NCBI GenBank assembly: GCA_017550145.1
Contig: JAFZQG010000015.1
Coordinates: 1-64,000 of the forward strand
DNA length: 64,000 bases
Direction of reading: 5' to 3'
Source of the DNA: Erysipelotrichaceae bacterium
GTDB taxonomy: Bacteria > Bacillota_I > Bacilli_A > Erysipelotrichales > Erysipelotrichaceae
Shown here: positions 26,335-43,200 of the stretch, piece by piece
Layout of the letters: every line of letters begins with the position of its first letter
Position numbering within the stretch: the first letter of the stretch is position 1
Position numbers and translations under genes: made by a program
The notes under the pieces: model-generated
Seen by the model: the letters and a program-made list of their open reading frames with translations, nothing else
The model's database searches: none
Told to the model about the DNA's origin: nothing

Positions 26335-26766
26335 ATGAGAAGATTAAACAACAAGGGAAGAATATCTTTATTAGAATTAGTTATTATTATCGTTCTGATC
26401 ATAGAAGGATTTTTCCTTTTGGGCAAAGCATTTGGCTGGACTGCAGATAAGGCAACAGGTGGTGATGACCGCTTGCTGGTTAATACAGCTGAAAGCACTG
26501 CGGCGGTAAATTCCTTAAATGGTATGTGCTGTCCTGTAAGCAACTGTGGCAGTTCCGGTGAATGTGTTCACAAGATGGCCGGATGGTATGTTGGTTATTA
26601 TGATGATCTGACTCATAATATCGTTGCTTATCCTCCTAAAGGTTATAACCAGAATCAGGAGATGCGTATCAAAAACAAGAAGTATTACGGCGATCCGGGT
26701 ACGATGGTCGTACAGATAAAGTGTAAAGAAGGCGTAGTCGAGTTAGACTGGGTCAAAGGCAAATAA
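26335..26766 (+). CDS. Cys-rich pseudopilin-like protein, first gene of the pilus operon
   Basis: A 143-aa protein with a prepilin-like N-terminus: basic leader MRRLNNKG, then RISLLELVIIIVLIIEGFFLLG. The Glu is at +6 after the Gly rather than +5 and the +1 residue is Arg, so processing by PilD is uncertain. The exported part carries four cysteines in MCCPVSNCGSSGEC and one more at IKCKEG, and a conserved-looking AGWYVGYYDDLTHNIVAYPP. I do not recognise the family. Its stop codon overlaps the prepilin peptidase start by one base, which ties it to pilus assembly, perhaps as an initiating minor pilin. Confidence 0.72.
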   Translation: MRRLNNKGRISLLELVIIIVLIIEGFFLLGKAFGWTADKATGGDDRLLVNTAESTAAVNSLNGMCCPVSNCGSSGECVHKMAGWYVGYYDDLTHNIVAYPPKGYNQNQEMRIKNKKYYGDPGTMVVQIKCKEGVVELDWVKGK

Positions 26767-27542
26767 TGTTTATCAGTGAAACATGGCTGATTATATACAT
26801 ATCATGTGTTTTATTCATGTTCGGAGCAGTCTTCGGCAGTTTTATTAATTGTGTAGCCGGAAGAATCGTAGCAGGCAAAGACTGGATCAGAGGCAGGAGC
26901 TATTGCGGGAGCTGTGGACATGAATTAAGCGCTTTGGATCTGGTTCCGATCCTCAGTTATATCTTTTTAGGTGGTAAATGCCGTTATTGTCATACTCATA
27001 TAAGCGCCAGATATATGCTGACAGAATTACTTCTGGGAACGCTGTTTGTCTGGCGTTTTCTGGTGTTTAAGACCGTTGATTTTCTTATGTTCAGAGACCT
27101 GATTTTATTTGTATTACTGCTGGGTTTGTCTCTGGTTGACCTTGATTCTTATATAATTCCTGATGGTTTTATCGTTGCAGGCATCATAAACTGGCTTATA
27201 AGCATCATTTTTGTCGAAAATAAGCTGTCTTATTTCATTAAAGGCATAACCGGAGGACTGTTTATCGGAGGCGGAATCCTGGTTCTTTCTCTGATTATGG
27301 ACAAGATTCTGGGCAAGGAATCTTTAGGCGGAGGAGACGTTAAGCTTTTATTCATGGTTTGTCTCTATACAGGACCTTATATAGGCCTATTTCTTTTGTT
27401 TCTTTCGTGTGTTATCGGCTTATTATTTGTGCTATTATTAAAAAAAGGAAAGATTCCTTTTGGTCCTTCCATTAGCATGGCGGCTTTTGTTGCCGCGCTT
27501 TATGGTGAGGTGATCTTAAGGTGGTATCTTTCATTATTCTAG
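26766..27542 (+). CDS. pilD: Prepilin peptidase/N-methyltransferase PilD
   Basis: A 258-aa bifunctional A24 aspartic peptidase that cleaves and methylates prepilins at the membrane. The N-terminal methyltransferase region has the zinc-type pairs CGSC (GRSYCGSCGHEL) and CRYC. The catalytic aspartates are in SLVDLDSYIIPDGF and in LGGGDVKLLF. About seven or eight membrane helices. Expected substrates in this window are the pilins at 463, 33872, 36922, 37254 and 37810. It overlaps pilM's open frame, but pilM starts at 27554. Confidence 0.95.
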   Translation: MFISETWLIIYISCVLFMFGAVFGSFINCVAGRIVAGKDWIRGRSYCGSCGHELSALDLVPILSYIFLGGKCRYCHTHISARYMLTELLLGTLFVWRFLVFKTVDFLMFRDLILFVLLLGLSLVDLDSYIIPDGFIVAGIINWLISIIFVENKLSYFIKGITGGLFIGGGILVLSLIMDKILGKESLGGGDVKLLFMVCLYTGPYIGLFLLFLSCVIGLLFVLLLKKGKIPFGPSISMAAFVAALYGEVILRWYLSLF

Positions 27543-27553
27543 GGAAAATTTAT

Positions 27554-28534
27554 ATGGCAAACATACTGGGGATTGAAATCGGAAACAAGACGGTCAAAGT
27601 CGTCGAAATCAAAGGTAATACCTTGAAGAACTTTGCGGTGGTTGACCTTCCCGACAATATCGTCGTAAACAATGAACTGATTGCTTTTGAAGCAATGGGC
27701 GATCTGCTTAAGGATATTGTCAGAGAACACAGAATGTCGACCAGAAGAGCCGCGCTGGTACTGCCTGATACGGCAGTTTATCTGAGAAGGATGGTCTTAC
27801 CGGCCATGAATGAAAAACAGCTGGCAGTAAACATGCCTTATGAGTTTAAGGATGTTCTGTCAGAAGAAAAAGACAAGTACATTTACGATTATTCCATGAT
27901 CGGATACCGCAAAGATGAAGAAGACAAGGTAACGGAAATGGAACTTTTAGGCGCTGTAGCAAATAGAGGTTTAATCGAAAAGTATCAGGAAATGTTCAAG
28001 AGAGCCGGATTGAAACTTGTTAAGGCTGGTCCGAGAGAAACAGCATTAAGTTGCCTGGTCAACATTCTCAACGAAGACAGCGAAAAGAAAGACTTCGCAA
28101 TACTTGACATAGGCTATAAATCAACCAAAGTCGAGATCTTCAAAGAAGGTGTCTATGAAGTAACCAGAACTATCGATTCCGGTGCGGAAGATATCGTTAA
28201 TGTTGTTTCGGAAGTCTTTGATGTTGATCCGCATGTCGCTTCAACATTCTTAGAGACAAATAAAGATAACGTTCAGGAAAATGAAAAGTGTGTCGATATT
28301 TATTCTAGTATCGCTACTGAAGTTATGCGTGTCATGAACTATTACAGTTTTGAAAACAGAGATTCAACTCTGGATACTTTATACTACTGTGGTGGCGGTA
28401 GTTATATTCCTAGATTTATTGAAGAAATCAAGGAAATGGTTTCGTTAGAACTTGAACCTTTATCATCACTTTCAGAAGTCGATAAAGATGCAATCGGTAA
28501 GTGTGCTCCTGCTATTGGAGCTTGTTATGAATAG
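27554..28534 (+). CDS. pilM: Type IV pilus assembly protein PilM
   Basis: A 326-aa actin-like cytoplasmic ATP-binding protein. LGIEIGNKTVKVVEI is the phosphate-1 loop; FAILDIGYKSTKVEIF the second; YYCGGGSYIPRF near the C-terminus matches the adenosine motif. PilM binds the short cytoplasmic tail of PilN and links the inner-membrane ring to the motor. AGGGAA precedes ATG 27554; the frame continues upstream into pilD but has no better start. pilN follows after 9 bp. Confidence 0.92.
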   Translation: MANILGIEIGNKTVKVVEIKGNTLKNFAVVDLPDNIVVNNELIAFEAMGDLLKDIVREHRMSTRRAALVLPDTAVYLRRMVLPAMNEKQLAVNMPYEFKDVLSEEKDKYIYDYSMIGYRKDEEDKVTEMELLGAVANRGLIEKYQEMFKRAGLKLVKAGPRETALSCLVNILNEDSEKKDFAILDIGYKSTKVEIFKEGVYEVTRTIDSGAEDIVNVVSEVFDVDPHVASTFLETNKDNVQENEKCVDIYSSIATEVMRVMNYYSFENRDSTLDTLYYCGGGSYIPRFIEEIKEMVSLELEPLSSLSEVDKDAIGKCAPAIGACYE

Positions 28535-28543
28535 AGGTGGCTT

Positions 28544-29131
28544 ATGAATCTGAATAAAGAAATATCATTCAAGAAGAATAAGAATAATCTTCCTTCAAAA
28601 ACATCTATCAACTTCATTGTTGATACAGAAACAAAGACTAATCGTATTTCGATTGTTTCTTTTTTGATTTTCCTTGTATTGTTAGGTTTATTTACCAAGT
28701 TTGCGGTATTAGATCCATTAGCTAAAGTTGCGAAAGCTGAAAGAGAATATAGAGCGGCTGAAAAACAGCTTGATGTCTACCGAAATGAATTAGTCAATTA
28801 TGGAGAAGTAGCAGCTGAATATAACGAAAAAGTCGGTACTTTCCTTACTGATGATGAGAGGTCTTATCTTGACCGTACCGATATATTACAGATGGTCAAG
28901 GAAGATATTTTCCGTTATGTGAATGTCAGAAGTATTTCTATTTCCGGCAATGTTGTCAGAGTTTCAACTGCAACTACAACTATGGATAAGATTTCTGATA
29001 TCGTTCAGGTTTTGCTTAATGACTCCAGAGTCTCTTATGTAACACCTAAGACTACAAAAGTCGATAATGATGCAAGCGAAAATGTAACCGCTGATCTGGA
29101 GATCGGTTACAGAGGAAAGACAGGTGAATAA
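28544..29131 (+). CDS. pilN: PilN-like pilus alignment protein
   Basis: A 195-aa bitopic membrane protein: 35 cytoplasmic residues containing KTSINFIVDTETK, one helix (about 36-56, ISIVSFLIFLVLLGLFTKF), a coiled-coil stretch (AKAEREYRAAEKQLDVYRNEL) and a ferredoxin-like outer domain. The classical PilN tail INLLP appears only loosely as INFIV. Identity comes mainly from position between pilM and a PilO-like gene and from topology. GAGGTGG precedes the ATG. Confidence 0.8.
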   Translation: MNLNKEISFKKNKNNLPSKTSINFIVDTETKTNRISIVSFLIFLVLLGLFTKFAVLDPLAKVAKAEREYRAAEKQLDVYRNELVNYGEVAAEYNEKVGTFLTDDERSYLDRTDILQMVKEDIFRYVNVRSISISGNVVRVSTATTTMDKISDIVQVLLNDSRVSYVTPKTTKVDNDASENVTADLEIGYRGKTGE

Positions 29132-29134
29132 GAT

Positions 29135-29713
29135 ATGTTAAACCGTGGTTTTTCAGTCAGAGAAAAGGTTCTATTAGTGTTGTGTGCTGTTATTGGTTTA
29201 GGTATTTTTTATTACGAAATAGCTTATAAATCTTTTAAGAATTCTCTGGAAGCCTATGATATTAGTAATATCCAGAACGAAACTGTCATCTTACAGGCTC
29301 AAGTCTCCAATAAGAGAATGATGGAACAGTATCTGATCGATCATAAGAACGATACTTATGGTGAGTTGGCGCTCTACAACAACCTGTCAAAAGAAATCAG
29401 TGAGCTTTCTATGATTTTTGACGGTATTGATAATCTATCGATTTCCTGGTCGGATCCGACCTTATTGAATACAACAGTAAGAAGAAACGCAAACGTTTCT
29501 TTCACGACTGTTGGATATCAGAAAGTTGTTGATCTGGTTAAAGCGATTCATAATTGCAAATATCGTTGTTTGATTTCTGATCTAAGTATTTCAACTAACA
29601 GAGATGAAGTGTTGGATGATAACAGCGATGTTAAAGTAAATATTGTTATTACTTTCTTCGAAACAATTGATGATAATACAAATCTTGAAGGTTTGACGGT
29701 TTTAAGTAATTAA
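29135..29713 (+). CDS. pilO: PilO-like pilus assembly protein
   Basis: A 192-aa bitopic protein with one N-terminal helix (about 11-28, VLLVLCAVIGLGIFYY), a helical segment and a C-terminal alpha/beta domain, the PilO/GspM arrangement. It should form a heterodimer with the PilN-like protein on the outer face of the membrane. Primary sequence is weakly conserved in this family, so the order M-N-O-B-T-C is the main support. AGGTG lies before the ATG, 3 bp behind pilN. Confidence 0.78.
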   Translation: MLNRGFSVREKVLLVLCAVIGLGIFYYEIAYKSFKNSLEAYDISNIQNETVILQAQVSNKRMMEQYLIDHKNDTYGELALYNNLSKEISELSMIFDGIDNLSISWSDPTLLNTTVRRNANVSFTTVGYQKVVDLVKAIHNCKYRCLISDLSISTNRDEVLDDNSDVKVNIVITFFETIDDNTNLEGLTVLSN

Positions 29714-29726
29714 GGGAGATTAAGAC

Positions 29727-31403
29727 ATGAAAGCTAAAAGATTAGGTGACATACTGGTCGAAAGTGGTGTTCTGACCAATGAAGATATCGAAAAAGCCCT
29801 TGAATTACAGAAGGGTACAAATAAACGTCTTGGTGAAATACTGATCGATGAAAAGTTCATTACCGAAACGCAATTCATCGATTCTTTAAGAATGCAGTTG
29901 GGTATTGATTTTATTGATTTAGGTAAAGCTCAGATTGACCCAGCATTAACTGCGTTAATTCCTAAAAATATTGCCAGACAGTATCGTGTAGTTCCGGTTA
30001 AACTGGTTGCGGATAGGCTATACATTGCCATGGAAGATCCGATGAACTTCCGTGCCGTTGAAGCTGTAAAAGAAGTTTCTCATAAACGTGTAACTGTTAT
30101 GATTGCCTATCGTGAGGCAATTGAAAGAGCTTTGGCAGTTCTTTATGAAAACGAAGGTGCCAATATAGCTATACAGGAGATGAAGGAGGAACAGGGACTT
30201 GTTTCTATTGAAGAAAGAAGTGCTGAAACTGAGAATTCTAACGCTCCGACAGTTAAGCTGGTTAACTCCATCCTCGAAAGAGGTATTGTTGAGAAGGCAT
30301 CAGATGTTCATATTGAACCTCGTGAAAATGATATGCGTGTTCGTATCAGAGTTGATGGCCGTCTGACAGAAATATTAACAATACCAAAGAATCTTCAAGG
30401 TGCTGTTGTATCTCGTTTGAAGGTAATGTCCAATATGAACGTTACCGAAAGAAGAATTCCTCAGGATGGCAGAGCTGTAGTAAGATCTTCTACTGGCAAG
30501 GATATCGACCTTCGTGTTAACACTTTGCCAACCATTTTTGGCGAAAAAGTAGTTATCCGTTACTTATGGAGAGACTCAACAACTTTAACCAGAAAAGGAA
30601 TCGGTATTACTGATAAAGATTCTGAGAAGTTTGATCGTATCATTAAGAACTCATCCGGTTTAATTCTCATCGTTGGTCCTACTGGATCAGGTAAAACATC
30701 AACCTTATATACAATTATTCAGGAAGTTAACCAGCCTGATGTCAACATGATTTCTTTGGAAGATCCAGTTGAGTATCAGATTGACGGCGTAACTCAGGTT
30801 TCTATAAATGAAAAAGTTGGTTTGACTTTTGCTGAATGCTTGAGAGCCTGCTTAAGACAAGACCCGGATATCATCTGTGTCGGTGAGATTCGAGATGGCG
30901 AAACAGCAGAAATCGCCATGCGTGCTGCTATGACTGGCCACCTGGTTTTATCAACGATTCATACCGAAGATGCAATTAGTGCTGTCGACAGATTAAAGGA
31001 CATGGGCGTTGAACCGTTCCTGATTTCAGGATCTCTTAGAGGTGTTATTTCTCAGCGTCTGGTCAGAAAGATCTGTCCGGATTGCCGACAGGAAGTTGAA
31101 GCAGATCCGTTTACTGCCGATTTAGTAGGTATTAAAGATTACAAGAATTTCCATTTCTATAAAGGTGCCGGCTGTCACAAGTGCTTTGATTCCGGTTATC
31201 GTGGACGTACCGGTATCTTTGAAATACTTACACTGAATTCAGAGCTTCGTGATGCAATCAATTCCGGTGTTCCTTCAAGCGAATTACGTAAAATGATTTA
31301 TTCATCAGACTTTACACCGATGATTGTTAATGCAAGACAACTGATTGAAGATGGTGTAACAACTGTAGAAGAAGTATTGTCTGAAGTTGCAACTATCGAA
31401 TAA
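29727..31403 (+). CDS. pilB: Pilus extension ATPase PilB
   Basis: A 558-aa GspE/PilB hexameric motor that powers pilus polymerisation. N-terminal GspE-II/MshEN domain (1-150, RLGDILVESGVLTNEDIEKA), then the ATPase core: Walker A GPTGSGKTS near 316, Asp box, Walker B VGEIRDGETAEIAM near 385 and the His box. The tetracysteine zinc site (CPDCRQ ... CHKCFDSGYRGRTGIFE) near 453-485 distinguishes extension ATPases from PilT. The MshEN domain can bind c-di-GMP in some homologues, a possible link to the EAL proteins here. GGGAG before the ATG. Confidence 0.96.
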   Translation: MKAKRLGDILVESGVLTNEDIEKALELQKGTNKRLGEILIDEKFITETQFIDSLRMQLGIDFIDLGKAQIDPALTALIPKNIARQYRVVPVKLVADRLYIAMEDPMNFRAVEAVKEVSHKRVTVMIAYREAIERALAVLYENEGANIAIQEMKEEQGLVSIEERSAETENSNAPTVKLVNSILERGIVEKASDVHIEPRENDMRVRIRVDGRLTEILTIPKNLQGAVVSRLKVMSNMNVTERRIPQDGRAVVRSSTGKDIDLRVNTLPTIFGEKVVIRYLWRDSTTLTRKGIGITDKDSEKFDRIIKNSSGLILIVGPTGSGKTSTLYTIIQEVNQPDVNMISLEDPVEYQIDGVTQVSINEKVGLTFAECLRACLRQDPDIICVGEIRDGETAEIAMRAAMTGHLVLSTIHTEDAISAVDRLKDMGVEPFLISGSLRGVISQRLVRKICPDCRQEVEADPFTADLVGIKDYKNFHFYKGAGCHKCFDSGYRGRTGIFEILTLNSELRDAINSGVPSSELRKMIYSSDFTPMIVNARQLIEDGVTTVEEVLSEVATIE

Positions 31404-31423
31404 ATAAAGAAAGATTTAATAAT

Positions 31424-32521
31424 ATGAAAACTATTGAAGAAATCGTTGCTTTAGGTAACAGTAACAATGCCAGCGATATTCATATCGCCTGTGATTCACC
31501 AGTTATGTACAGAATTGACGGTGAACTTCAGAAACTAGACGATGATGTTTTGACATATGAAGACTGCGAAAGATTAGGCGAGAGTATGGCTAAAGAACAG
31601 TTTATAAAGATGAAAGATTCCGGTGAACTGGATTTGGCTGCTACATATAATGATGTACGTGTACGTATAAATCTTTTCAGATCTAAAGGTTCTACAAGAG
31701 CCTCTTTACGTATTTTACACTCACATATTCCACAGTTAAGCACATTGGGATTACCACCTGTAGTTAATGATTTCCCTTCGTATGGTAAAGGTATTATCTT
31801 AGTAACGGGTGAAACCGGTTCAGGTAAGTCTACCACTATGGCTGCAATCTTAAACGAAATCAATCATACTCGTAGAGAACATATCATTACACTTGAAGAC
31901 CCGATAGAATACATTTATGAAAATGATAAATGTCTGATTTCTCAAAGAGAAATTGGAACAGATACCGAGAGTTATTCCGAAGGTCTTAGAGCAATTTTAA
32001 GAGAAGATCCTGATGTTATTCTGATTGGTGAAATGCGTGACTCAGTAACTATTGAAACTGCTTTAACAGCTGCCGAAACAGGTCACTTGGTTTTTGCTAC
32101 ATTACATACAAATTCGGCTGTTGATTCTGTAGATAGAATTGTAGGTACATTCCCAGCTGAAAAGCATGCCCAGGTACGTATGCAGTTATCTACAACATTA
32201 AAAGCAGTATTGTCACAGCAACTTTTAGTTAGAAAAGGCGGCAAAGGTAGAGCTGCTGCTGTCGAATGCATGGTTATGACTCCAGCCATTAAGAACCTCA
32301 TCAGAGAAGGAAATACCGCTCAGATGGAATCAGCATTATTATCGAGCGCAAACTTAGGAGCTATTACCATGGATAACTGTTTAATCAATATGGTTAAAAA
32401 TAATGTTATCGAAGCTGGTACAGCTATTGATGCAGCAAATAACGCTGAATATGTCAGACAGAATGTTGGTGGCATGAAGAGTGCATATTTTGATCCTAAA
32501 GGCGGAGGCAAGAAGATATGA
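31424..32521 (+). CDS. pilT: Pilus retraction ATPase PilT
   Basis: A 365-aa PilT-type ATPase. SDIHIACDSPVMYRIDGEL opens the N-terminal PAS-like domain; Walker A GETGSGKSTT is near 128; VILIGEMRDSVTIETALTAAETGH is the Walker B region (given here across two stretches, VILIGEMRD and TALTAAETGH); PAIKNLIREG matches the C-terminal AIRNLIRE motif that marks retraction motors. Its presence beside PilB predicts dynamic pili capable of twitching and DNA uptake. The last 4 bases overlap pilC. Confidence 0.95.
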   Translation: MKTIEEIVALGNSNNASDIHIACDSPVMYRIDGELQKLDDDVLTYEDCERLGESMAKEQFIKMKDSGELDLAATYNDVRVRINLFRSKGSTRASLRILHSHIPQLSTLGLPPVVNDFPSYGKGIILVTGETGSGKSTTMAAILNEINHTRREHIITLEDPIEYIYENDKCLISQREIGTDTESYSEGLRAILREDPDVILIGEMRDSVTIETALTAAETGHLVFATLHTNSAVDSVDRIVGTFPAEKHAQVRMQLSTTLKAVLSQQLLVRKGGKGRAAAVECMVMTPAIKNLIREGNTAQMESALLSSANLGAITMDNCLINMVKNNVIEAGTAIDAANNAEYVRQNVGGMKSAYFDPKGGGKKI

Positions 32522-33729
32522 TTACTTATAAATACTCTGCAATTTCCAAAGATGGTGCTAAAGTCAGTGGCATAATTAAAGCTATTGATGAGTATCAGGC
32601 TGTAGAAAGAGTTAAAGCTCAATATCCAGTTGTTGTAAAGATTGATGAAGTTAAGGATACATTGATGAATCAAATCCTTAATTTTGAAATTGGTAAAAAG
32701 TTTGATGCAAAAGCCTTATCTGTCATGTGCTCGCAGTTTGGAATCGTTCTTGAGAGTGGTGTGCCAATTGATGAATGTCTGAAAATGATTGCGGCTCAAA
32801 CAAAGGACAAAAAGATTAAAAAGATGCTTGAACTTTCTGCTGAAGATGTGGCTCAGGGAACGCCGATAGCTACAGCTTTTGAAAAGAATTATCCTGATCT
32901 TCCGGTAACTTTCTTGGAAACAATTAGAGCCGGCGAAGTATCTGGTACACTTGATAAATCTTTTGCATCGTTAGCTGATTTCTATGAAAGAAGTTATACT
33001 CTGGAACAGAAAGTCAGATCCGCAATGAGTTATCCTTTATTCGTTTTAGGTGTAGCGATTGTAGTTTTAATTGTTATCATGGCGTTTGTAATGCCGAAAT
33101 TTACTTCAATGTTTGATGACTTGGGTGGTGAATTACCTGGTATTACAAAATTATTAATTGCCTTTACCAATTTTTTCCAGAAATGGTGGCTATTAATTGT
33201 TGCGGTTATTATTATTCTTATAGTATCCATTATTTTGTATAAACGCTCTGATACTGGAAGAATGAAATGGGCAGAGTTAATGTTGAAACTGCCAGTAATA
33301 GGTAATTTGAATATTTTACAAGCATCAACTGAATTTGCATCTACCATGACTACACTTCTTCGAGCTGGTTTAACGGTTGGCGACGCATTAAATGTTACTA
33401 GTAAAGTAATTCAAAACTATGCGATTGCTTCTGAAGTAAAAACTATGGAAGAAAAGATCAAGACGGGTCAGGAGCTCGGTAATGTCATGAGAACCAGCAA
33501 ATACTTTCCACAGGTTTTAAAAGAAATGACTGCTGTCGGAGAAAAAACCGGTGAATTGGAAACCACACTTGATACAATCTCTACTTACTATAACAACGAA
33601 TATAACTATGCGGTAGGTAAAGCCATTGCCAAACTGGAGCCGGCAATGCTTGTGTTCTTAGCGCTGTTCGCTGGTTTCATTGTTATAGCACTGTATCTTC
33701 CTATGTTTACAATGTACGATTTGATGTAA
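32518..33729 (+). CDS. pilC: Pilus platform protein PilC
   Basis: A 403-aa GspF/PilC inner-membrane platform with two repeated cytoplasmic helical domains (about 60-180 and 265-385) and three membrane helices (about 170-195, 215-240, 370-400). Characteristic segments: MCSQFGIVLESGVPIDECL with its second-domain counterpart FASTMTTLLRAGLTVGDAL, and VTFLETIRAGEVSGTLD with EMTAVGEKTGELETTL. It couples the PilB/PilT motors to pilin insertion. Start overlaps pilT (ATGA), and GGAGG lies within the end of pilT. Confidence 0.95.
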   Translation: MITYKYSAISKDGAKVSGIIKAIDEYQAVERVKAQYPVVVKIDEVKDTLMNQILNFEIGKKFDAKALSVMCSQFGIVLESGVPIDECLKMIAAQTKDKKIKKMLELSAEDVAQGTPIATAFEKNYPDLPVTFLETIRAGEVSGTLDKSFASLADFYERSYTLEQKVRSAMSYPLFVLGVAIVVLIVIMAFVMPKFTSMFDDLGGELPGITKLLIAFTNFFQKWWLLIVAVIIILIVSIILYKRSDTGRMKWAELMLKLPVIGNLNILQASTEFASTMTTLLRAGLTVGDALNVTSKVIQNYAIASEVKTMEEKIKTGQELGNVMRTSKYFPQVLKEMTAVGEKTGELETTLDTISTYYNNEYNYAVGKAIAKLEPAMLVFLALFAGFIVIALYLPMFTMYDLM

Positions 33730-33742
33730 AACATATAAAATT

Positions 33743-33800
33743 AACGTTCTGTAAGCGGTAACATTTTTTAGTAAAAAAATATTGCAGGACGTTTTTATTT
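33743..33800 (+). terminator. Terminator or attenuator between pilC and pilA
   Basis: AACGTTCTGTAA (33743-33754) pairs with TTGCAGGACGTT, a 12-bp stem with G-U pairs and an AT-rich loop, followed by TTTTATTTT. Termination here would separate pilin expression from the assembly genes. Confidence 0.78.
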
Positions 33801-33871
33801 TATGTATACTTTATTTAGCAATATTGTTTTTTTGAATTGCGAATAATTGTTTATAAGAAAGGATTTCGAAA

Positions 33872-34300
33872 ATGAAAAAATTAAACAAAAAAGGTTTCAC
33901 ATTAGCTGAACTGTTAATCGTTGTAGCTATCATCGCCGTATTAGTAGCTATCTCTATTCCAATTTTCACAGCGCAGTTAGAGAAAGCCAGAGATGCTGTT
34001 TCTGTATCTAACATTCGTGCAGCCTACGCAGAAGCTTCTGCATCATATCTTACATCTAACGGAAAAGATGTAACCGAAGGAAGAGTTGTAGTTGATGCTG
34101 ATGCTAAAACAGCTACAGTGACTGGCGTTAATCTCAAAGGAACACAGAGCGGTTGGAGCGGTCTTGATGCAGAATTAGATGGTTTTACTCATACAACAAT
34201 GACTGATGCTATAGGTGGAGAACCAGGCACTTACACTGCAGTGTTCACTTTTAGCGATGAAGGCACTTGTACGTTAACCTCGCTTGCAGAAGAAGATTAA
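33872..34300 (+). CDS. pilA: Major type IV pilin (expressed copy)
   Basis: A 142-aa prepilin: leader MKKLNKKG, cleavage G8|F9, Glu+5 in GFTLAELLIVV, hydrophobic helix to residue 32, then QLEKARDAVSVSNIRAAYAEA and a short head of about 90 residues ending in a beta-rich GTYTAVFTFSDEGTC. AGAAAGGA precedes the ATG. It is separated from pilC by a terminator, so it is probably transcribed strongly on its own. Codons 25-32 lie in a 24-bp sequence repeated in inverted orientation in the truncated pilin at 35267-35620; recombination there would exchange the head for another one. Confidence 0.95.
   Translation: MKKLNKKGFTLAELLIVVAIIAVLVAISIPIFTAQLEKARDAVSVSNIRAAYAEASASYLTSNGKDVTEGRVVVDADAKTATVTGVNLKGTQSGWSGLDAELDGFTHTTMTDAIGGEPGTYTAVFTFSDEGTCTLTSLAEED
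33944..33967 (+). repeat. 24-bp inverted repeat, copy 1 (inside pilA codons 25-32)
   Basis: Exact 24-bp identity, in inverted orientation, to 35585-35608. It encodes VAISIPIF. Flanking positions match less well (GCCGTATTA versus GCTGTATTG upstream; alternate mismatches downstream). Confidence 0.92.
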
Positions 34301-34387
34301 TCAATATTGTTAATACGATAGTCTAAATTAATGCGTGGTTTTGAGAATCCTTCTCTAAACTCATGCGTGGGTGACTATTAACTTATT

Positions 34388-34436
34388 AAAGGCAGATATA
34401 CAGTGGACATCATATACTGTACGATCTGCCTTTTTG
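34388..34436 (+). terminator. Terminator downstream of pilA
   Basis: AAAGGCAGAT (34388-34397) pairs with ATCTGCCTTT, followed by TTTT. The 34310-34387 stretch before it also has two ATGCGTGG motifs (34331 and 34361) around GAGAA-TCC-TTCTC, possibly an IS end. Confidence 0.7.
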
Positions 34437-34453
34437 TATGGATAGAAGTGTGA

Positions 34454-35227
34454 TTACTCTTTGACCTTTCTGTATGGACCTCTTGTCTTGCCTGTTCTTT
34501 TCACGCTTTTTAGGATATTGGTAAGAGAATAGAAGATTTTGGGATTGAGGGCGAACAGAACCCTTTTCCTGAATCGTTCGAAGTTAGTGATCCCTCTGGA
34601 GATTATCAGGTAGGAAGCGATCTTACCGTTGATGTTTTCACTAAACGCATTGGACAGCTTTCTTTCATCGTAAGGCCTTAAGAAGGAATTGAGTATCTCT
34701 GTCTTCCAGTTTTTAAGGATATTGACGAATTCATAGTATTCCTTGATATCCGCATCCTCAAATTCCTTAACTAAGATGTCATAGTTCTCCACAGCTTCCT
34801 CATAGGACATATTCCTGTTGAAGGAGCGATACTTCTCCTTAAGGTAATAGGCTTCATTTAAAACGGGCGATAGATCCAGAACCATCTTCAGTATCTGTTT
34901 CCTGTTTAGCTTCATTTTAAAGCGCCTGTTGTATTCCGGCTCATTGTCCAGATCGACCTTTCTTATATCCTTCTCCAGTAACCAGTTCCATTTCTTGAGA
35001 AGATAATAGGCGTTGGAGTTATATACACACTGATTCATGATGTTGATCCTGACCTGTCTGAAATCCTTGCGCAGATGTTCGATCACGTGGAAGGGATCCA
35101 CGGCTACAATACAGTTTCTGAAGTGTTTATAGGCTAAATCCCTATATGATTGCCACATATCGATGGTCACATATTTTACTCTGTCCTTTTCTTCTTGCGT
35201 GTAGGTATAGAAATAGTTATCCAGCGC
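34454..35227 (-). pseudogene. ISL3-family transposase, C-terminal fragment
   Basis: The open frame runs from 35227 (after an in-frame TAA at 35228-35230) to the stop at 34454 and encodes 257 residues, ALDNYFYTYTQEEKDRVKYV at its start. VTIDMWQSY, the DDE-region VAVDPFHVIEHL with its Asp, and the acidic residue in LSNAFSENINGKIA are typical of ISL3 transposases. The N-terminal 180-200 residues, with the zinc-binding and first catalytic Asp, are missing, so it is inactive. It lies between the two pilin copies and points the same way as the truncated pilin. Confidence 0.88.
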
Positions 35228-35266
35228 TTATACGACTAAAAATAAATGAATTATCGTACTTAAGAA

Positions 35267-35620
35267 CTAGTTTTTTACACAAGTCCAAGTACCATCAGCT
35301 TTTACAGTAACAGTAACAGAATCCCCTACTTTAACATCAGGAATTTTGTTTGTGCTTGTTGCACCCGTACCATAATCATTTCCAACAATCTCGCCCGAGG
35401 ACAGCCAACCAGAAGTTGCTTGTTTGATTGCAACGCTTTTTGATGCAGTGCCATCAGCCTCTGTATAAGTAACGCCATTTGCACCATCGTCTGTTTCTGA
35501 CAATACGGCTGCTGAACATTCCGCATAAGCTGAACGAATATTAGCTAAGTCTGTTGCTTCTTTCGCTTTTTCTAATTGAGCTGAGAAAATTGGAATAGAG
35601 ATAGCTACCAATACAGCACT
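35267..35620 (-). pseudogene. Promoterless truncated pilin, candidate silent or alternate cassette
   Basis: On the minus strand the frame encodes AVLVAISIPIFSAQLEKAKEA and a head of about 100 residues ending DGTWTCVKN. The leader, cleavage site and first half of the pilin helix are absent: homology to pilA begins abruptly at GCTGTATTGG (35620-35611) and the DNA before it is unrelated and lacks a start or ribosome site. The remainder is open and well preserved, with the same layout as pilA (QLEKA, NIRxAYAE, SGW, final beta strand with Cys). It could be a donor or inversion partner for pilA, or a recent relic. Joined at the 24-bp repeat it would give a 137-aa pilin. Confidence 0.85.
35585..35608 (-). 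repeat. 24-bp inverted repeat, copy 2 (inside the truncated pilin)
   Basis: Exact inverted counterpart of 33944-33967, 1.6 kb away, in the same codon phase of the truncated pilin. Confidence 0.92.
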
Positions 35621-35624
35621 GGTA

Positions 35625-36067
35625 TTAGGCGGATATATATAACAATAAAAAGAGAATCATCACACTTTGCGCTATGATTCTCTTATCATTGTTGTTTGAT
35701 TTAGTAATTATCCCAAAAAGTGATAAATAGAAGATTTTATTATGTTTTAAAGATCTGCCAAGAAAATGTTGTCGGGAATAGAGAATTTTGAATAGCCTAG
35801 CATGATGTAATCCGGTTTGATTTTCTACACCAAGAAGTAGAAAATTCGTTTTATTATCTGTCATTATCTGAATAAGTTTTAGATTATCTCTTATTCTCTG
35901 AAGCATAGTGTTATTTTTTAAATCTGTAGCAATTTGTGTTGTATCTTGGCCAATAAGTTCCTTGCTGTTTACAACTTGCTTTACTTCAAACACGAAAACA
36001 TTGAAAAGATCGGCGAATTTTCGGGATCTGATATGTATTTATTGGTAATAATATCCAGTTTTGCCAT
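35625..36067 (-). pseudogene. Rpn-family PD-(D/E)XK nuclease, frameshifted and truncated
   Basis: From ATG 36067 the minus strand reads MAKLDIITNKYISDPEN, then a one-base loss near 36016-36020 shifts the frame; the next frame continues FADLFNVFVFEVKQVVNSKE and later LLLGVENQTGLHH. Together these match the N-terminal part of Rpn/transposase-like PD-(D/E)XK proteins. After about codon 90 the similarity stops and the frame runs on through unrelated sequence to 35625. It is a decayed remnant beside the truncated pilin. Confidence 0.7.
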
Positions 36068-36274
36068 TATTAGTTTTTGGTATTACATTATTTGCAAAAA
36101 ACAGGGTAATACCTACATAAAATACAATTTTTCTATATATTTTCTATACAAAATATTCTTAATATGACAAAAAATAGCCAAATATTAACATATTTATTTA
36201 AAATTGTTAACTAACTATACAAAACAGTGGATCCATCATTAGAAAAATATGTTTGATAAACATATTTTGTATTA

Positions 36275-36304
36275 TTGCGGGGGTGAAAATTTCTTTAGTA
36301 TAAT
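36275..36304 (+). promoter_or_regulatory. Promoter of the minor pilin operon
   Basis: -10 TATAAT at 36299-36304, with a weak TTGCGG at 36275-36280 and an 18-bp spacer. The 36068-36274 stretch before it is AT-rich and shows no gene. Confidence 0.6.
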
Positions 36305-36312
36305 ATAGATGG

Positions 36313-36346
36313 GTTTCTATACACATTTTTTTGTGTGAAACTTTTT
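36313..36346 (+). promoter_or_regulatory. 5'-leader hairpin before the minor pilins
   Basis: GTTTC-(TAT)-ACACA / TGTGT-GAAAC forms a ten-pair stem with a T6 loop right at the predicted start point and is followed by TTTTT. It could act as an attenuator or a stabilising 5' stem. The ATG at 36356 has no Shine-Dalgarno. Confidence 0.5.
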
Positions 36347-36355
36347 GATTGATAG

Positions 36356-36925
36356 ATGAAGATGAAGAATATTGCGGTTAAAAAAATAAAATCTAACAAA
36401 GGAGCTTCTTTATCAATAGCGCTGTTATTCTTTTTAATTTGCGCTGTTATTTCTTCTGTGGTTTTAACTGCAGGAACAGCTGCTGCAGGCAGATTAAGCA
36501 AGAGAGCAGAATTGGATCAGCAATATTATCTTGTTAATTCGGCTGCTGAATTAATAATCGAAGAACTAGAAGGCAAAACGGTTTTAGTTGACAAAAGCAA
36601 GAATCCTGTAGCTTATTTGGACAATCTCGGAGAAAATAATATTCCTACTAATTCTCTTGTATACAAACTCGCAACAGGGAGTATTAATTCGAATGATACG
36701 TGTGAGTTGAATATTTCGTATGATAGCGGAAAATCCGCTACTGCTTATTTTAATTTATATTTAGTTTCTCCTAGTTATTTGAAAATAAACGTGAGAAATA
36801 AACCGGATATAGATGATCCCGATGCATATGCATTAACACTGTATTTTTCTCTTGATGATTCTCCTGTCGGTAGTTCGTTTGAAAGTGTTACATGGCTTTT
36901 GAAAGATTTTTATAAAGGAAAATGA
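36356..36925 (+). CDS. Minor pilin-like protein (PilX/ComGF-like position)
   Basis: A 189-aa protein with a basic N-terminus (MKMKNIAVKKIKSNKG), one hydrophobic helix (ASLSIALLFFLICAVISSVV) and an exported domain. The KG|ASLS junction resembles a prepilin site but lacks Glu+5, as in PilX/GspK-like minor pilins that cap the tip. Exported part: YYLVNSAAELIIEELEGK and a beta-rich C-terminus. First of four genes that overlap by a few bases (next start 4 bp before its stop), so they form one translationally coupled unit. Confidence 0.75.
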   Translation: MKMKNIAVKKIKSNKGASLSIALLFFLICAVISSVVLTAGTAAAGRLSKRAELDQQYYLVNSAAELIIEELEGKTVLVDKSKNPVAYLDNLGENNIPTNSLVYKLATGSINSNDTCELNISYDSGKSATAYFNLYLVSPSYLKINVRNKPDIDDPDAYALTLYFSLDDSPVGSSFESVTWLLKDFYKGK

Positions 36926-37254
36926 AGAATACGCTGATAAGAAAATTTAGAAACAATAAAGGTGAAACGATAGCGGAAACGCTGGTTGCTTTGTTAATTG
37001 CAGCGTTAGGATTACTTATGTTAGCTACAGCCATCAATTCAACTGTAAAAATTATAAATAACAGTAATAAGAAAATTAAAGAATATATCGGCGAAGATGT
37101 TGTTGTTGCTGAACAGAAAGGCGGTTCAGTAAGCGGAAGCGCGTCATTTAGCACTAGCCCGTCATACGACACAAAAGATAGTATCGGTGTAAATGTATAT
37201 GTTAACGATACAGTAAATAAAATAGAGATTATTTCCTTTAAAAAGGCAGATTAA
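36922..37254 (+). CDS. Minor pilin, PilV-like
   Basis: A 110-aa prepilin-like protein: basic leader, KG|ETIAETLVALLIAALGLLML with Glu at +5, then VKIINNSNKKIKEYI and a short beta-rich head. The ETLVALLIAALGLLMLA helix is typical of PilV/ComGD-type minor pilins. Overlaps the preceding gene by 4 bases and the next by 1. Likely part of the tip complex that primes polymerisation. Confidence 0.8.
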   Translation: MKNTLIRKFRNNKGETIAETLVALLIAALGLLMLATAINSTVKIINNSNKKIKEYIGEDVVVAEQKGGSVSGSASFSTSPSYDTKDSIGVNVYVNDTVNKIEIISFKKAD

Positions 37255-37817
37255 TGATTAATAAAGTGTATGGTAAAAATGGTTTTACATTAGCAGAATT
37301 GTTACTGGCAATAATAATTCTTCTTTTGGCAACCGGAATTGTGGCTGGTGGAATTCCGGCAGCAATAAATGCTTATAGAAAGGTCGTAGATGCCGCCAAC
37401 GCCCAGATTCTGCTTACAACTACAACAACTTGTTTAAGAGATGAGTTTGATTTGGCTTCCGATATAAAAGTAAAAAATATCGGAACAGAAGGAAATCCGG
37501 AATTAGTAGTGGAATATACCAGCCCTCAAAGATGGAGATGTGTGCTCAAGAATGTAACCAGTGGAGAAAAAGGGATTACTGTTATAAAGGGCTTTTCAGA
37601 TAACTCGATGCTGTTGGTCTCTGACCATGCTGCAGCCGAGACATTTTATGTCACATATGACTCTGTAAGTATCAGTGATAATGTTCTAACTTTCAGTGAT
37701 CTTCAGGTATATAAGAAAGGTACGAACGGTTCAGCTGATTCTGTTGTCCCAAACGTAAGTTTGGAGAGTTATAAAGTAAAAGCGATAAAAAAGAATGTGG
37801 AAGTTAAAGATGATTAA
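37254..37817 (+). CDS. Minor pilin, PilW-like
   Basis: A 187-aa prepilin: leader MINKVYGKNG, cleavage before FTLAELLLAIIILLLATGIV (Glu+5 present), then a head with VDAANAQILLTTTTTCLRDE. The N-terminal helix has a Gly/Pro-containing segment (VAGGIPAAI) as in PilW/GspJ proteins. Overlaps the upstream pilin by one base and the downstream adhesin by 8 bases. Confidence 0.82.
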   Translation: MINKVYGKNGFTLAELLLAIIILLLATGIVAGGIPAAINAYRKVVDAANAQILLTTTTTCLRDEFDLASDIKVKNIGTEGNPELVVEYTSPQRWRCVLKNVTSGEKGITVIKGFSDNSMLLVSDHAAAETFYVTYDSVSISDNVLTFSDLQVYKKGTNGSADSVVPNVSLESYKVKAIKKNVEVKDD

Positions 37818-40116
37818 ATCCGGTGAGAGAAAAAACAAAGGATTTTCTATGGCTGAATTAATGGCTGTAGTAGGAATTATTGCCGTTTTAGCGGGAGTTA
37901 TTTTTATTGCACTTGGTTATTACTTCAGACTGCTCAAACAGCTGGAGTATGATGCAATAGCAAAAGAAATCTTTATTTCCGCTCAGAATCATCTTTCTTT
38001 GGTGGAAAATGAAAACTATTTAGGAATCGATGATGATGCATTTGGAACTCCTGAATCTAGTGATGATATAGATGAATCTGTTTATATTGTTGGAGCTTAC
38101 TATTACATTGTTGGTGAAGACAAAACTGTGCTGAGAGAGAATAATTCATTATCACTTATGATGCCGTTTGCTTCAATTGATGATACGGTTAGACTAAGCG
38201 GTTCATATATAATCAGATACCATAAAGATACAGGCAGAGTATTAGACGTCTTCTATTCATCTCCAAAATCTTATTATGGATATACTTTTAATAGTTCTGA
38301 TTCAGATTCCGAAAATGAAGCAGAGTATAATACGCTGTTAACGAATTATCGAGGAACTGATAAAGTTTCAAAAAAAGCAAGAAGAGAATATGGCTCTGGT
38401 AAGAAAGTAATTGGTTATTATGGTGGCGAACAAGTTAATTCTTTGGAAACTGTTGATGACCTTTATGAACCTGAATTGGAAATTGTAAATGCCGAAAGAC
38501 TGAAAGCATCAGTCAAAAATATTAAAGATATTTTACAGCAAGATTCAAATGCAAAAATAAGATTAATTGTAACCGGTTTAACAAGCGGCAACAGCAGATA
38601 TATTGATGTCGAAATAAAAACAGTTGGAGAAGATGTTGTTGCAGAAGCTGTTTTGGATAGTATCACAGAACAGAACAGTCATTTTTATGATATGTTCTGC
38701 AACGGAGAGAATACCACTACGCATACAAATATAAAGGGCAAGGATAATCTGATTCCTGGCGAAAACATCACTGTGCAGGCTAAAGTATTCAGAAGTGATG
38801 CATTGGGCAAGATTGCCTTCAGTGATAAAAAACAGACTAATAGCATATTTGCTACAAGCAGCACCGATTCCAAAGCTCTTATTTCAAATATTAGACATCT
38901 GGAGAACTTAAGCGTTGAAGTATCAAAACTAGATAATAATAGAAAAACCAAAACAATAAACGCTGAACAGGTAAGCGATCTCGATTATAGAGATTTCAAA
39001 CAAATAGTTGGTAGTTATAATGGTGTTTATGTTTGTGGCAATAATACAGTAGCTACAAGTGAATTCCTTCCTGTATCAATAGCTATTGCGGATTCACTTT
39101 CATATAATGGTGGAAATCACAAAATAAGCTATATTGTTGTTAATAAAACGGGAGATACAGGCTTATTTGGCAGCGTAACAGGATGCAATATAAGCAACCT
39201 TGAACTGATTAACTTCAGTATAAGTGGCGGAAACAACGCAGGTGCTTTAGCTGGAAGCATTAGCAGCACGGGCATCGATAATGTAATAGCAATAGAGCAG
39301 GGTAATTTTTCATCCGATATAAAAGGCACATCAAATTCCGGTGGCCTTGTTGGTTTGATGACTAATGGCAGAATGAATTATTGTGCAGCTGCTGTACATG
39401 TAAGCAGTACTGCTAATAACAGTAATGCCGGCGGTCTAATCGGTTCGGTTTCAGCGACCGAAACAGGAACAGTCGACATTAAAAACAGTTATTCGGCTGG
39501 TCATACCAGCAATGGTAAGTATATGGAAAACAAGATTGATGTCGAATCAACTTCTGGCAACGCCGGTGGTCTTATTGGCTACGCAAATAAAGTTAAAATT
39601 GATTCATGCTATTCAACTTGTTCTACAGACGGTGGAATATCTGCCGGAGGATTAATCGGTAGTTTATCAAATTCGGAGATGAAGAACACTTATGCAGTAG
39701 GATATGTCAAACTGGATAAAAATGCTGATGGTGAGTTTATCACCAACAACAAAGGAGCGCTTGTTGGTGCTGATTCGAGCAACAGTTATACAGGTGACAA
39801 CAGATATTTAGCTATTGCAAATAACAGCTCTTTGAAAGGTGTCTCTGATAAGACGATCAGCAATGTTTATGCAGCTGATGAAAAAACAGCGTTATATACA
39901 TCAACTGAGAATTATTCAAGACTTCTCAGTGAGTATTTAAAAGGTAGCGGGTCAGGTGTTGATGCCAAGCCTTATGATAACTATCTAATAACACGCTATC
40001 AGAATAAGTATCAGTATTTAGGAATTAAAGAATTGTCAAGTGTTAGTGATGAAAAATTCGTTTCAAAACATTATGGTGACTGGCCTTCATATGAAACATT
40101 CATTATTAACGAATAG
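37810..40116 (+). CDS. Large minor pilin with GLUG-repeat adhesin head (768 aa)
   Basis: The N-terminus is a prepilin signal: MIKSGERKNKG|FSMAELMAVVGIIAVLAG, Glu+5 present. The rest is an unusually large head. Residues about 370-650 contain several GLUG-type repeats: DTGLFGSVTG, NAGALAGSIS, SGGLVGLMTNG, NAGGLIGSVS, NAGGLIGYAN and SAGGLIGSLSN, which form a beta-solenoid in bacterial surface adhesins. This looks like a pilin-anchored tip adhesin. ATG 37810 follows GGAAG and is preferred to the in-frame ATG 37795. A TATAAT promoter for the giant gene follows. Confidence 0.85.
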   Translation: MIKSGERKNKGFSMAELMAVVGIIAVLAGVIFIALGYYFRLLKQLEYDAIAKEIFISAQNHLSLVENENYLGIDDDAFGTPESSDDIDESVYIVGAYYYIVGEDKTVLRENNSLSLMMPFASIDDTVRLSGSYIIRYHKDTGRVLDVFYSSPKSYYGYTFNSSDSDSENEAEYNTLLTNYRGTDKVSKKARREYGSGKKVIGYYGGEQVNSLETVDDLYEPELEIVNAERLKASVKNIKDILQQDSNAKIRLIVTGLTSGNSRYIDVEIKTVGEDVVAEAVLDSITEQNSHFYDMFCNGENTTTHTNIKGKDNLIPGENITVQAKVFRSDALGKIAFSDKKQTNSIFATSSTDSKALISNIRHLENLSVEVSKLDNNRKTKTINAEQVSDLDYRDFKQIVGSYNGVYVCGNNTVATSEFLPVSIAIADSLSYNGGNHKISYIVVNKTGDTGLFGSVTGCNISNLELINFSISGGNNAGALAGSISSTGIDNVIAIEQGNFSSDIKGTSNSGGLVGLMTNGRMNYCAAAVHVSSTANNSNAGGLIGSVSATETGTVDIKNSYSAGHTSNGKYMENKIDVESTSGNAGGLIGYANKVKIDSCYSTCSTDGGISAGGLIGSLSNSEMKNTYAVGYVKLDKNADGEFITNNKGALVGADSSNSYTGDNRYLAIANNSSLKGVSDKTISNVYAADEKTALYTSTENYSRLLSEYLKGSGSGVDAKPYDNYLITRYQNKYQYLGIKELSSVSDEKFVSKHYGDWPSYETFIINE

Positions 40117-40209: not shown

Positions 40210-43200
40210 ATGTATATGGAAAGATTATTTGAAAAGATTAAAAAACAGTCAAAAGGATCATCATTGATCAACCTTTTCTTGATACCTTTTTTGACTGCTA
40301 TGATGATCATTACCAGCATTCCGGTCAATGTCTCGGCAGCAGAATATCAGACTTTAACGTATGACTATGACGATAAATACAAAGTCATCTTAACTTATGA
40401 TGAGGCTTCTTCAATACCTGAAGGGTCTACATTACATGTCGAAGAGTATGCGGATAATGATAATGAGTATCTCAACAAGACAAAAGAGCTTTTGGAATGG
40501 GAAGAAAGTGACTTTAACGTTTATTCATTATTGGATGTTTATATCGAAGATAAAGACGGAAACAGAGTAATTCCGCACGATAAGGTTAAGATCAAAATTC
40601 AAACGATAGAACCCGAAGATAATGATGAAGAAATAGAAGAAATCATCGACCAGACTAAACTTGTTATTTTAGGCGAAGATAATGATAACGTAATTGTTAA
40701 TAATCAGGGTGACAATGTCGTAGTTAAGGAAGATACCAACTTCTCGATTACTTTTAAAAACGAAAACGAAGAATCAGAAGCTTCTTTCCCGATTGTAGCT
40801 GTAGCTCAGGTAGTAAGGGAAAAGATTATAAAGGCTTCTGATGGCAACAATTACAGCATCAAAGTATCTTATGATGCTAACGCAGGAATCCCTTTAGATG
40901 CAGAATTAAGAGTAGAAGAGGTAAGCAGTGATGGATATCTGGAATACGGTTTGGATTCGCTTAACGTTCCTAATACCAGCGTCTCTTTTGCTTACGCATT
41001 TGATATTAGCATCGTTGATGCTTATGGAAATGAATGCGAACCTGAAGGCAGTGTAAAAGTAAGCATTGAATTATTAAACGAAGAATTCAATGATGATCTT
41101 AACATTGGTGTATTACATATTGCTGATGATAAGAGCGAACTTATAAATCATGAGATCAATGAAGGAACAGTAGAATTTGATACTAATGGATTCTCTGTTT
41201 ATATGATCGTTGGATACAACACTGATTTCTATTATGTTGACTGCGAAGGGGAAACATGGAAGATCAGTGCAACATATAGTGCTGATTCAGATATTCCTGA
41301 AGATATACAGCTTGTAGTCCGTGAACTGGAATCAAATGAGTGTGAAGAATATCTTGATGATGCTGCAAGAGCTCTTGGTGTTTCTGATAACGAAGTTAAA
41401 ATAGCTAAAGCATTCGATATTCATCTAGAAAAAGACGGTATTGAATATCACAATACTGAAGACGAATTTGAAGTAAAGATTCAGTTAAGCGATATAGATT
41501 TATCTGAAATGCAGATTCTTCATTTCAGTGATGATTCAAATGATGCAGAAATGGTAGAAGCAACTTCTGATGAAGATTCGTTGAGTTTTAAAACTGATGG
41601 ATTCTCAGTTTATGCGATTGTTAAAACCACGATTGTTACTACGATAGAAGCAAGCGATGGCAATACATATAAGATTACGGCAGAATATGATTCTGATTCA
41701 GGTTTACCTGAAGATACAAGACTTGAAGTAATAGAGATCAGTTCAGATTCTGATGAATTTGAACAGTATATTGATGCTACTGCTGAAAAGTTGAATAAAA
41801 ATGCTGAAGAATTCAAATTTGCAAAAGTATTTGATATCAGCATTGTTGATAATAATACAGGGAAAAAATATCATCCGAATGAAAACGTTAAGGTCAGCAT
41901 TGAACTCTTAAAAGAAGAAATCGATGAAGAAGAGACTGAAGTCAGCGTTGTTCATTTTACTGATTCCTCAGATGCTGAGGATCTTTATGATTATGCAGAG
42001 ATAATCAGCAATTCAATAGTAGATGGCAAAGTTGAATTTGAAAACGATGATTTCAGCGTATATGCAATTGTTTCATACACTGTTGATTTCCATTGGGGCG
42101 ATTATACATACAGCATTGCAGGTGAAGACAGCATCCTTTTATCTGAACTACTTGAGAAATTAGGTATCACAGAAGTTACTGTTGAAGATATAGAAGATGT
42201 TAGTTTTTCTGATACATCTTTAATTACTGTAGAAAAAACAGAAAATGATTGGCTTTTGACCAGCCTTGAAGCATTTGCTACAGAACAGACATTAACCTTA
42301 GTTCTGAAGAACGGCAAGAATGTTTCGATTAAAGTGACTGATGAGCAGCTTCCGAAAGAAATTACTATTACTGCAGATAGTGCTTCAAAGCCTTGGGATG
42401 GAACAGAATTAACAAAGAACTCATATACTTATACTGATCTTTTACCAGGCGACAGTATTGAAAGCGTCACAATAACGGGCAGTCAGACAGCATCAGGAAT
42501 AAGTGAAAACGTTCCTAGTGATGCAAAGATTGTAAACAGCAACGGTGATGATGTTACGGGTAATTACAACATCATATATGTTAACGGTACATTAGAGGTT
42601 ATAGGCACAAAGATAAAAATCACATCTAATACTGCATCGAAGACATATGATGGAACTCCTTTGACAGACAACGGATATACCGTTGTTGGTGAGTTAAATG
42701 ATAATAGTCATACTATTTCGGTAAATGTTACTGGTTCTCAAACAAATGCAGGATCAAGCGATAATACATTTGATGTAACAATACTTGACGGCAACAGTGA
42801 TAGCGTTACAGCTCAGTATTCAATTGAATGTGTATATGGAACATTAACAGTAGATCCGATTAGTGTAACTCTCAGTGCAAACAGTGGCACAAGAAAGGTA
42901 AACGAAAGCGGAGATCCAATTAACCTTGGCTATACATGTAGTGTAGAAGGTTTGACTTTTGATGGTGTATCAGTTACATCTGCATCAACTGTAGGTATGC
43001 ATGATGTTAAATTCTATGGTGTTACTCTTGGTGAAACTAAAGATACCACCGGAAACTATGTTGTTACTAAAACGAATGATGGTCTTCTGATTATCGAAGG
43101 CAATACACCATTTGTAACTAAATCACTTACAGATTTCAATATAAATCTTGCATATTATAAGATCGAAATAAACCAAGGCGGCGACATAATAAATGATGGA

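Follow-up and report, generated by a model that had tools for sequence, protein, structure and literature searches.

To our knowledge, programmed variation of a type IV major pilin is known only from Gram-negative bacteria, by RecA-dependent gene conversion or by Piv inversion, and our search of one literature library on the topic found no Gram-positive or serine-recombinase case of pilin variation. In Moraxella, Piv-mediated inversion exchanges the variable part of the major pilin, with the crossover in its N-terminal coding region. The pilin inversion of Moraxella bovis and M. lacunata is among the work cited in PMC11868660. In the R64 shufflon, only the core and the right arm of the sfx sites are conserved, the left arm being variable (PMC11852207). 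The locus described here resembles the shufflon in its alternative pilin ends, inverted segments, and fixed crossover; Moraxella in the inversion reading, the N-terminal crossover, and the major pilin's variable part as target; and Neisseria pilE/pilS in its silent partial pilin copies lacking promoter and leader. Whereas the plasmid-borne shufflon varies the C-terminus of the minor pilin adhesin PilV, here all but 22 residues of a major pilin would be exchanged, on the chromosomes of low-GC Gram-positive bacteria.

The window, the 64,000-nucleotide stretch of DNA analyzed here, corresponds to contig C21 of the 2.02-Mb draft genome (94% complete) of a gut bacterium of the Erysipelotrichaceae. 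It holds a type IV pilus operon (26766-40116) encoding a prepilin peptidase, PilM/N/O-like proteins, two ATPases, PilC/GspF, PilA, and minor pilins (names partly our own reading), with pilA immediately 3' of the pilC/gspF gene. Approximately 2 kb between pilA and the minor pilins are occupied by a fragment of an ISL3 transposase and by a leaderless pilin in inverted orientation, and the locus is made up as follows:

32518..33729, plus strand: pilC/gspF, type IV pilus platform protein (PF00482), with the same gene order in relatives G014, G094, and G099
33872..34300, plus strand: pilA, full-length type IV pilin of 142 aa, presumed expressed copy (N_methyl PF07963 / TIGR02532)
33935..33967, plus strand: predicted crossover site and conserved arm in pilA, GCC followed by GTATTAGTAGCTATCTCTATTCCAATTTTC, at the boundary common to the cassettes of six genomes
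34388..34435, plus strand: terminator-like hairpin with T run, after pilA (z -5.4)
34454..35170, minus strand: ISL3-family transposase relic, C-terminal half only (profile match, positions 183-369 of 370), between the arms
35267..35617, minus strand: pilin head cassette without leader, its frame uninterrupted between the Ala/Val codons and the stop, opposite to pilA (sequence comparison, reading frame)
35585..35617, minus strand: predicted crossover site and arm in the cassette, GCT followed by GTATTGGTAGCTATCTCTATTCCAATTTTC (sequence comparison)
35640..35700, minus strand: terminator-like hairpin directly upstream of the cassette (-24.9 kcal/mol, z -7.4), as also before several cassettes in relatives
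35724..35801, minus strand: relic of companion gene ORF239 (54% over 26 aa; 78% over 50 nt; 0/2000 shuffles as good)
36356..40116, plus strand: minor pilin genes, 3' of the cassette locus and in the same position in G014 and G094

PilA scores over the PF07963 cut-off for the N-terminal methylation motif and the cassette, as expected, is without it. Directly 3' of the minor pilins, a single open frame of 6028 aa (40210-58296) probably encodes a giant repetitive surface adhesin.

An earlier sequence-only reading of this DNA had reported an exact 24-bp inverted repeat shared, in the same codon phase, by pilA and a leaderless inverted pilin copy. Both observations hold: the repeat (GTAGCTATCTCTATTCCAATTTTC) lies at 33944-33967 and 35585-35608 with its arms in the same phase, and no leader or start precedes the head at 35617-35267. 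The surrounding ungapped inverted match (33928-33996 / 35556-35624; 69 nt, 83%) is the longest inverted repeat within 28 kb. Counted from the crossover, the two arms are identical at 31 of 33 nt; from the Val codon on, GTATTAGTAGC.. in pilA and GTATTGGTAGC.. in the cassette, preceded by GCC and GCT, respectively, differ at one of 30. By our estimate a 24-mer inverted repeat is expected by chance in 64 kb at ~1e-5, a figure for which common pilin ancestry has to be allowed. From VLVAIS on, the truncated copy stays open for 115 codons up to its stop, and the predicted product of an inversion, an intact pilin of 137 aa, is borne out arithmetically (22 PilA residues plus 115, frame open). A DNA search of the window's genome with this stretch found no further copies of the arm outside pilA. 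The only close pilin elsewhere in that genome is full length (463-1449, ~328 aa), with the same N-terminal helix in unlike codons, and serves as a control for arm similarity. A single-sequence structure model of the cassette head, a helix followed by strands, has a mean pLDDT of 48 and is too weak to carry weight.

Relatives were searched at the genus, family, order, and class levels, several hundred genomes in all. In the order-wide search (316 genomes, 80 genera), where a pilin was taken as leaderless if its match to PilA started only at residues 14-27, leaderless heads were found in six genomes from two genera, namely the window's genome (G000), G014, G094, G099, G118, and G074. The 15 cassettes that we aligned, casD of G074 among them, keep intact frames of ~100-139 codons wherever a contig end does not intervene, and 14 of them start at one and the same nucleotide, a Gly/Ala codon followed by GTATTAGT..., with similarity to pilA beginning at the G of the Gly/Ala codon that precedes VLVAISIPIF. 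The exception is casb of G118, in which similarity to pilA extends ~15 nt further. Sharing sequence from the GTATTAG after the Gly/Ala codon onward, with unrelated sequence upstream, the cassettes recall the right-arm-only site of the shufflon. A shorter copy in G074 (G074:C3:145149; L111:5025-5270) starts later and adjoins an apparent transposase C-terminal sequence, as the window cassette adjoins a transposase fragment. Protein scans and an exact-pattern scan of viral contigs found no relevant relative.

In G094 the order is pilA, five cassettes (orientations + - + - -), a large serine recombinase, and minor pilins. As in the shufflon, G094 thus has several segments in alternative orientations (two direct, three inverted); the window has one left. 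Genes for Fic-HTH, YefM-YoeB, and an HTH regulator lie between the G094 cassettes (L110:8142-12026), recalling the toxin-antitoxin genes of large integrons. At one contig end of G014, on the minor-pilin side, lie ORF239, a recombinase, and two cassettes, and pilA is at the end of another contig; G074 has, in order, an ORF239 homologue, two recombinases, and cassettes. The large serine recombinases of G014, G094, and G074 are 46-48% identical, stand 54 bp, ~0.7 kb, and ~1.6 kb from cassettes, respectively, and lie within the pilA locus in two of these three relatives; all three genes encode Resolvase, Recombinase, and zinc-ribbon domains (the zinc ribbon below cut-off in G014). Thirty other members of the family, chosen as best matches to one query and none of them known from a pilin locus, form a separate clade (100/100); the three linked genes alone form no clade, and all four locus-linked recombinases, including the G074 partner gene, fall outside the clade of 30. 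We rejected the idea that this lineage is exclusive to pilin loci, as it also occurs without pilins in G336 (L192-L193) and G314 (L194, G314:C68), which counts against the exchange reading. G314, from a different family, carries the same lineage together with an ORF239-like companion and no pilin cassettes.

No recombinase gene had been visible in the window to the sequence-only reading, and we likewise found no large serine recombinase in the window's genome (94% complete), no PF07508 protein in G099, and no serine recombinase of the linked lineage in G118, although the latter two carry cassettes; these absences count against the exchange reading. The one small gene with a resolvase domain in the window's genome, at one end of contig C32, is not of the large serine recombinase kind. 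The absence from the window is explained by the recombinase at the corresponding place in relatives and by the ORF239 relic, which, like the ISL3 transposase fragment, had been overlooked. The relic lies on the cassette's strand ~0.1 kb upstream, in the strand and order seen in G014, where ORF239 precedes the recombinase and cassettes; its shortness (26-41 residues) counts against it. The simplest history is therefore an ancestral order like that of G014, with companion and recombinase upstream of the cassette, from which both genes were later deleted; the ISL3 fragment also points to decay of the locus. An overlapping frame (35625-35993), once considered a nuclease remnant, was dropped, having no Pfam or NCBIfam match and being explained in part by the ORF239 comparison.

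We consider it likely that the window holds a shufflon-like locus for site-specific exchange of pilin heads, this copy being without recombinase and probably locked. In such a system, the promoter, leader, and first 22 PilA residues would be constant, and spare heads nearby, without leader or promoter and with a common first nucleotide in the codon preceding VLVAISIPIF, would be the exchangeable part. A large serine recombinase would cut both pilA and a cassette at this point, a one-armed site conserved only to the right of the crossover. Between pilA and an inverted cassette site the segment would flip, swapping heads without loss, whereas direct sites would lead to excision or integration. 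Since inversion loses nothing, inverted cassettes should persist. They do predominate near pilA (in the window and G099, among the G094 cassettes with three of five, and in G014 provided that its contigs join in the expected way), which suggests that inversion is the usual outcome, presumably in the service of varying the pilus surface. Terminator-like hairpins just before several cassettes would insulate the silent heads. Large serine recombinases usually join two unlike sites, and inversion between sites sharing one arm is not textbook behavior, which counts against this mechanism. In the window one inverted cassette is left, the recombinase would have been deleted, and an ISL3 fragment separates the arms; unless some enzyme works on it in trans, the copy is therefore probably locked.

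For the window alone, one may go further and see an inert relic, an old pilin fragment beside pilA that is now incapable of inversion. The missing recombinase, the ISL3 remnant, and the remnant of the companion gene speak for this, the near-identical arms (one mismatch in 30) and intact frame speak against it, and we regard the matter as evenly balanced. An inert window copy is compatible with the exchange reading, which itself holds this copy to be probably locked.

The silent heads of relatives bear on whether the cassettes were ever more than debris. Orthologous silent heads compared with each other give dN/dS values of 0.144 (20 synonymous and 11 nonsynonymous changes) and 0.088 (37 and 20), and the window's silent head and its closest expressed head, the pilA of G014 (91% over 47 residues), differ by 18 synonymous and five nonsynonymous changes over 36 codons. 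These low values imply that silent heads are expressed at times. The decay or absence of the truncated head in relatives, named at the outset as speaking against an exchange locus, is thus not what is found: relatives carry intact cassettes under selection. Arms within a genome are also alike, pilA-cassette pairs differing at a median of 3/30 nt vs 8/30 for other same-genome pilins (p 5e-6, the pairs being not fully independent), and other full-length pilins with the same ten residues differing at 6-12/30 nt from their own genome's pilA or cassettes. Some cassette arms, however, diverge within a genome at 6-8/30, which counts against exchange. The head tree mixes silent with expressed heads: a silent G094 head and the expressed heads of G074 and G099 join the window's expressed head (98/97), the window's silent head pairs with the expressed G014 head (90/71), and one silent G094 head falls with the expressed G035 and G016 heads (99/98). 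The state changes eight times, compared with a shuffled mean of 8.6, and three of these changes are forced by well-supported branches.

Accretion of integrative elements without any switch would have elements with a large serine recombinase insert in pilA at the crossover site, bringing a replacement 3' end, with displaced heads left as leaderless scars and changes of orientation accidental. SCC elements insert in rlmH in a comparable manner. The linked recombinases are nearest to SCC Ccr proteins among named families, although the best score of 112.9 bits is far below the NCBIfam CcrA/B/C cut-off of 900; the superfamily, the accumulation of cassettes at a host-gene site, and the toxin-antitoxin genes of the G094 array, as in large integrons, are likenesses to SCC/Ccr and integrons, whereas cassettes that are pilin heads in both orientations are a difference. 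The Fic, YefM-YoeB, and HTH genes of G094, the several G074 and G118 cassettes that sit far from pilA in islands with foreign genes, and the cassettes in direct orientation (G094 cas1 and cas3, G074 cas) also favor accretion. Insertion would leave the displaced head direct, yet the inverted orientation is commoner near pilA, and purifying selection on silent heads is unexpected for scars; we therefore hold accretion to be unlikely.

Returning to site-specific exchange, flanks and heads are found to reassort at a single base. Two G074 cassettes 67 kb apart (159.9 and 226.5 kb) are alike at 90 of 100 upstream bases, the last 17 identical, and then continue into unrelated heads. Similarly, casB and casC of G074 and casa of G118 combine related flanks with two kinds of head, while casC of G074 and casb of G118 match as one cassette over 530 bp (head and downstream) from base -3 but differ in their flanks. 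One flank thus occurs with different heads and one head with different flanks, which points to site-specific recombination and not gene conversion. Conversion in the style of Neisseria, in which silent partial copies donate sequence to pilA through RecA, does find some echo here, in promoterless, leaderless partial copies with intact frames, some homogenized over the conserved helix, and in within-head mosaics such as the G016 and G035 pilA genes, which are alike for the first 124 nt of the head and diverge after that. It would nevertheless leave donors and flanks unchanged and has movable breakpoints, in contrast to the one fixed breakpoint and exchange of flanks seen here, nor would it account for a recombinase lineage linked to cassettes, and we judge it improbable.

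Equally improbable is inversion by another enzyme in trans, an IS110/Piv-like transposase or an Rci/Xer-like tyrosine recombinase with the serine recombinase as a passenger: two IS110 transposases and several tyrosine recombinases are encoded in the window's genome, and in this genome, G099, and G118 there are cassettes but no recombinase of the linked lineage was found, yet both IS110 genes are on other contigs, none was found in G014 or G099, neither an IS110/Piv-type gene nor a PF00589 protein was found near the cassette loci of G000, G014, and G094, and the G118 integrase ~2 kb from casb is within an island. Three tandem tyrosine recombinases lie ~9 kb from the G074 pilA locus (G074:C3:215206-217620). 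The locus thereby parts from Moraxella, whose Piv belongs to the Piv/MooV (IS110-like) group, and in that cassettes here can be many, in both orientations, and with other genes between; it parts likewise from the shufflon, whose Rci is a tyrosine recombinase while a large serine recombinase is linked here. The interpretation in the sequence-only reading is partly supported. Relatives, through the fixed boundary and the flank/head reassortment, lend strong support to an exchangeable head whose crossover lies in the conserved helix; the Neisseria parallel is disfavored by the fixed nucleotide and the Piv parallel, as to the enzyme, by the lack of such a gene near the loci of G000, G014, and G094.

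A family of exchangeable pilin heads appears to be real, and it is probably driven by the large serine recombinase. More tentatively, and with rather less than even confidence, we suggest a "pilin integron," in which recombinase and companion would collect, invert, and exchange heads at one defined position of the major pilin gene, with islands carrying heads, arrays containing addiction genes, and heads passing between genera. The kind of system is already known; what is new is apparently the large serine recombinase, the low-GC Gram-positive lineage, and the major pilin as target. If true, this would be a third route to major pilin variation, found in gut Firmicutes; its site is short and one-armed, and its candidate enzymes are open to direct testing.

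Assembly ends may carry a trace of such exchange. Contig C30 of G014 ends exactly 141 nt past the boundary, and the largest default k of MEGAHIT is 141. The G014 project was assembled with MEGAHIT 1.1.1, k settings unstated (PMC8199421). A contig ends at k past a point where different upstream sequences converge, suggesting that the G014 head stands behind at least two upstream contexts in its sample. We rejected these contig ends as proof of inversion, as they show only several upstream contexts for one head. Contigs also end within pilA in G016 and G139, and an exchange system would account for the assembly breaks within pilA seen in several of these species. Pilin expansion takes another form in G008, of the same genus, where 16 pilin matches, nearly all full length and some near contig ends, are spread over contigs C18, C24, C28, C31, C42, C46, C49, and C56.
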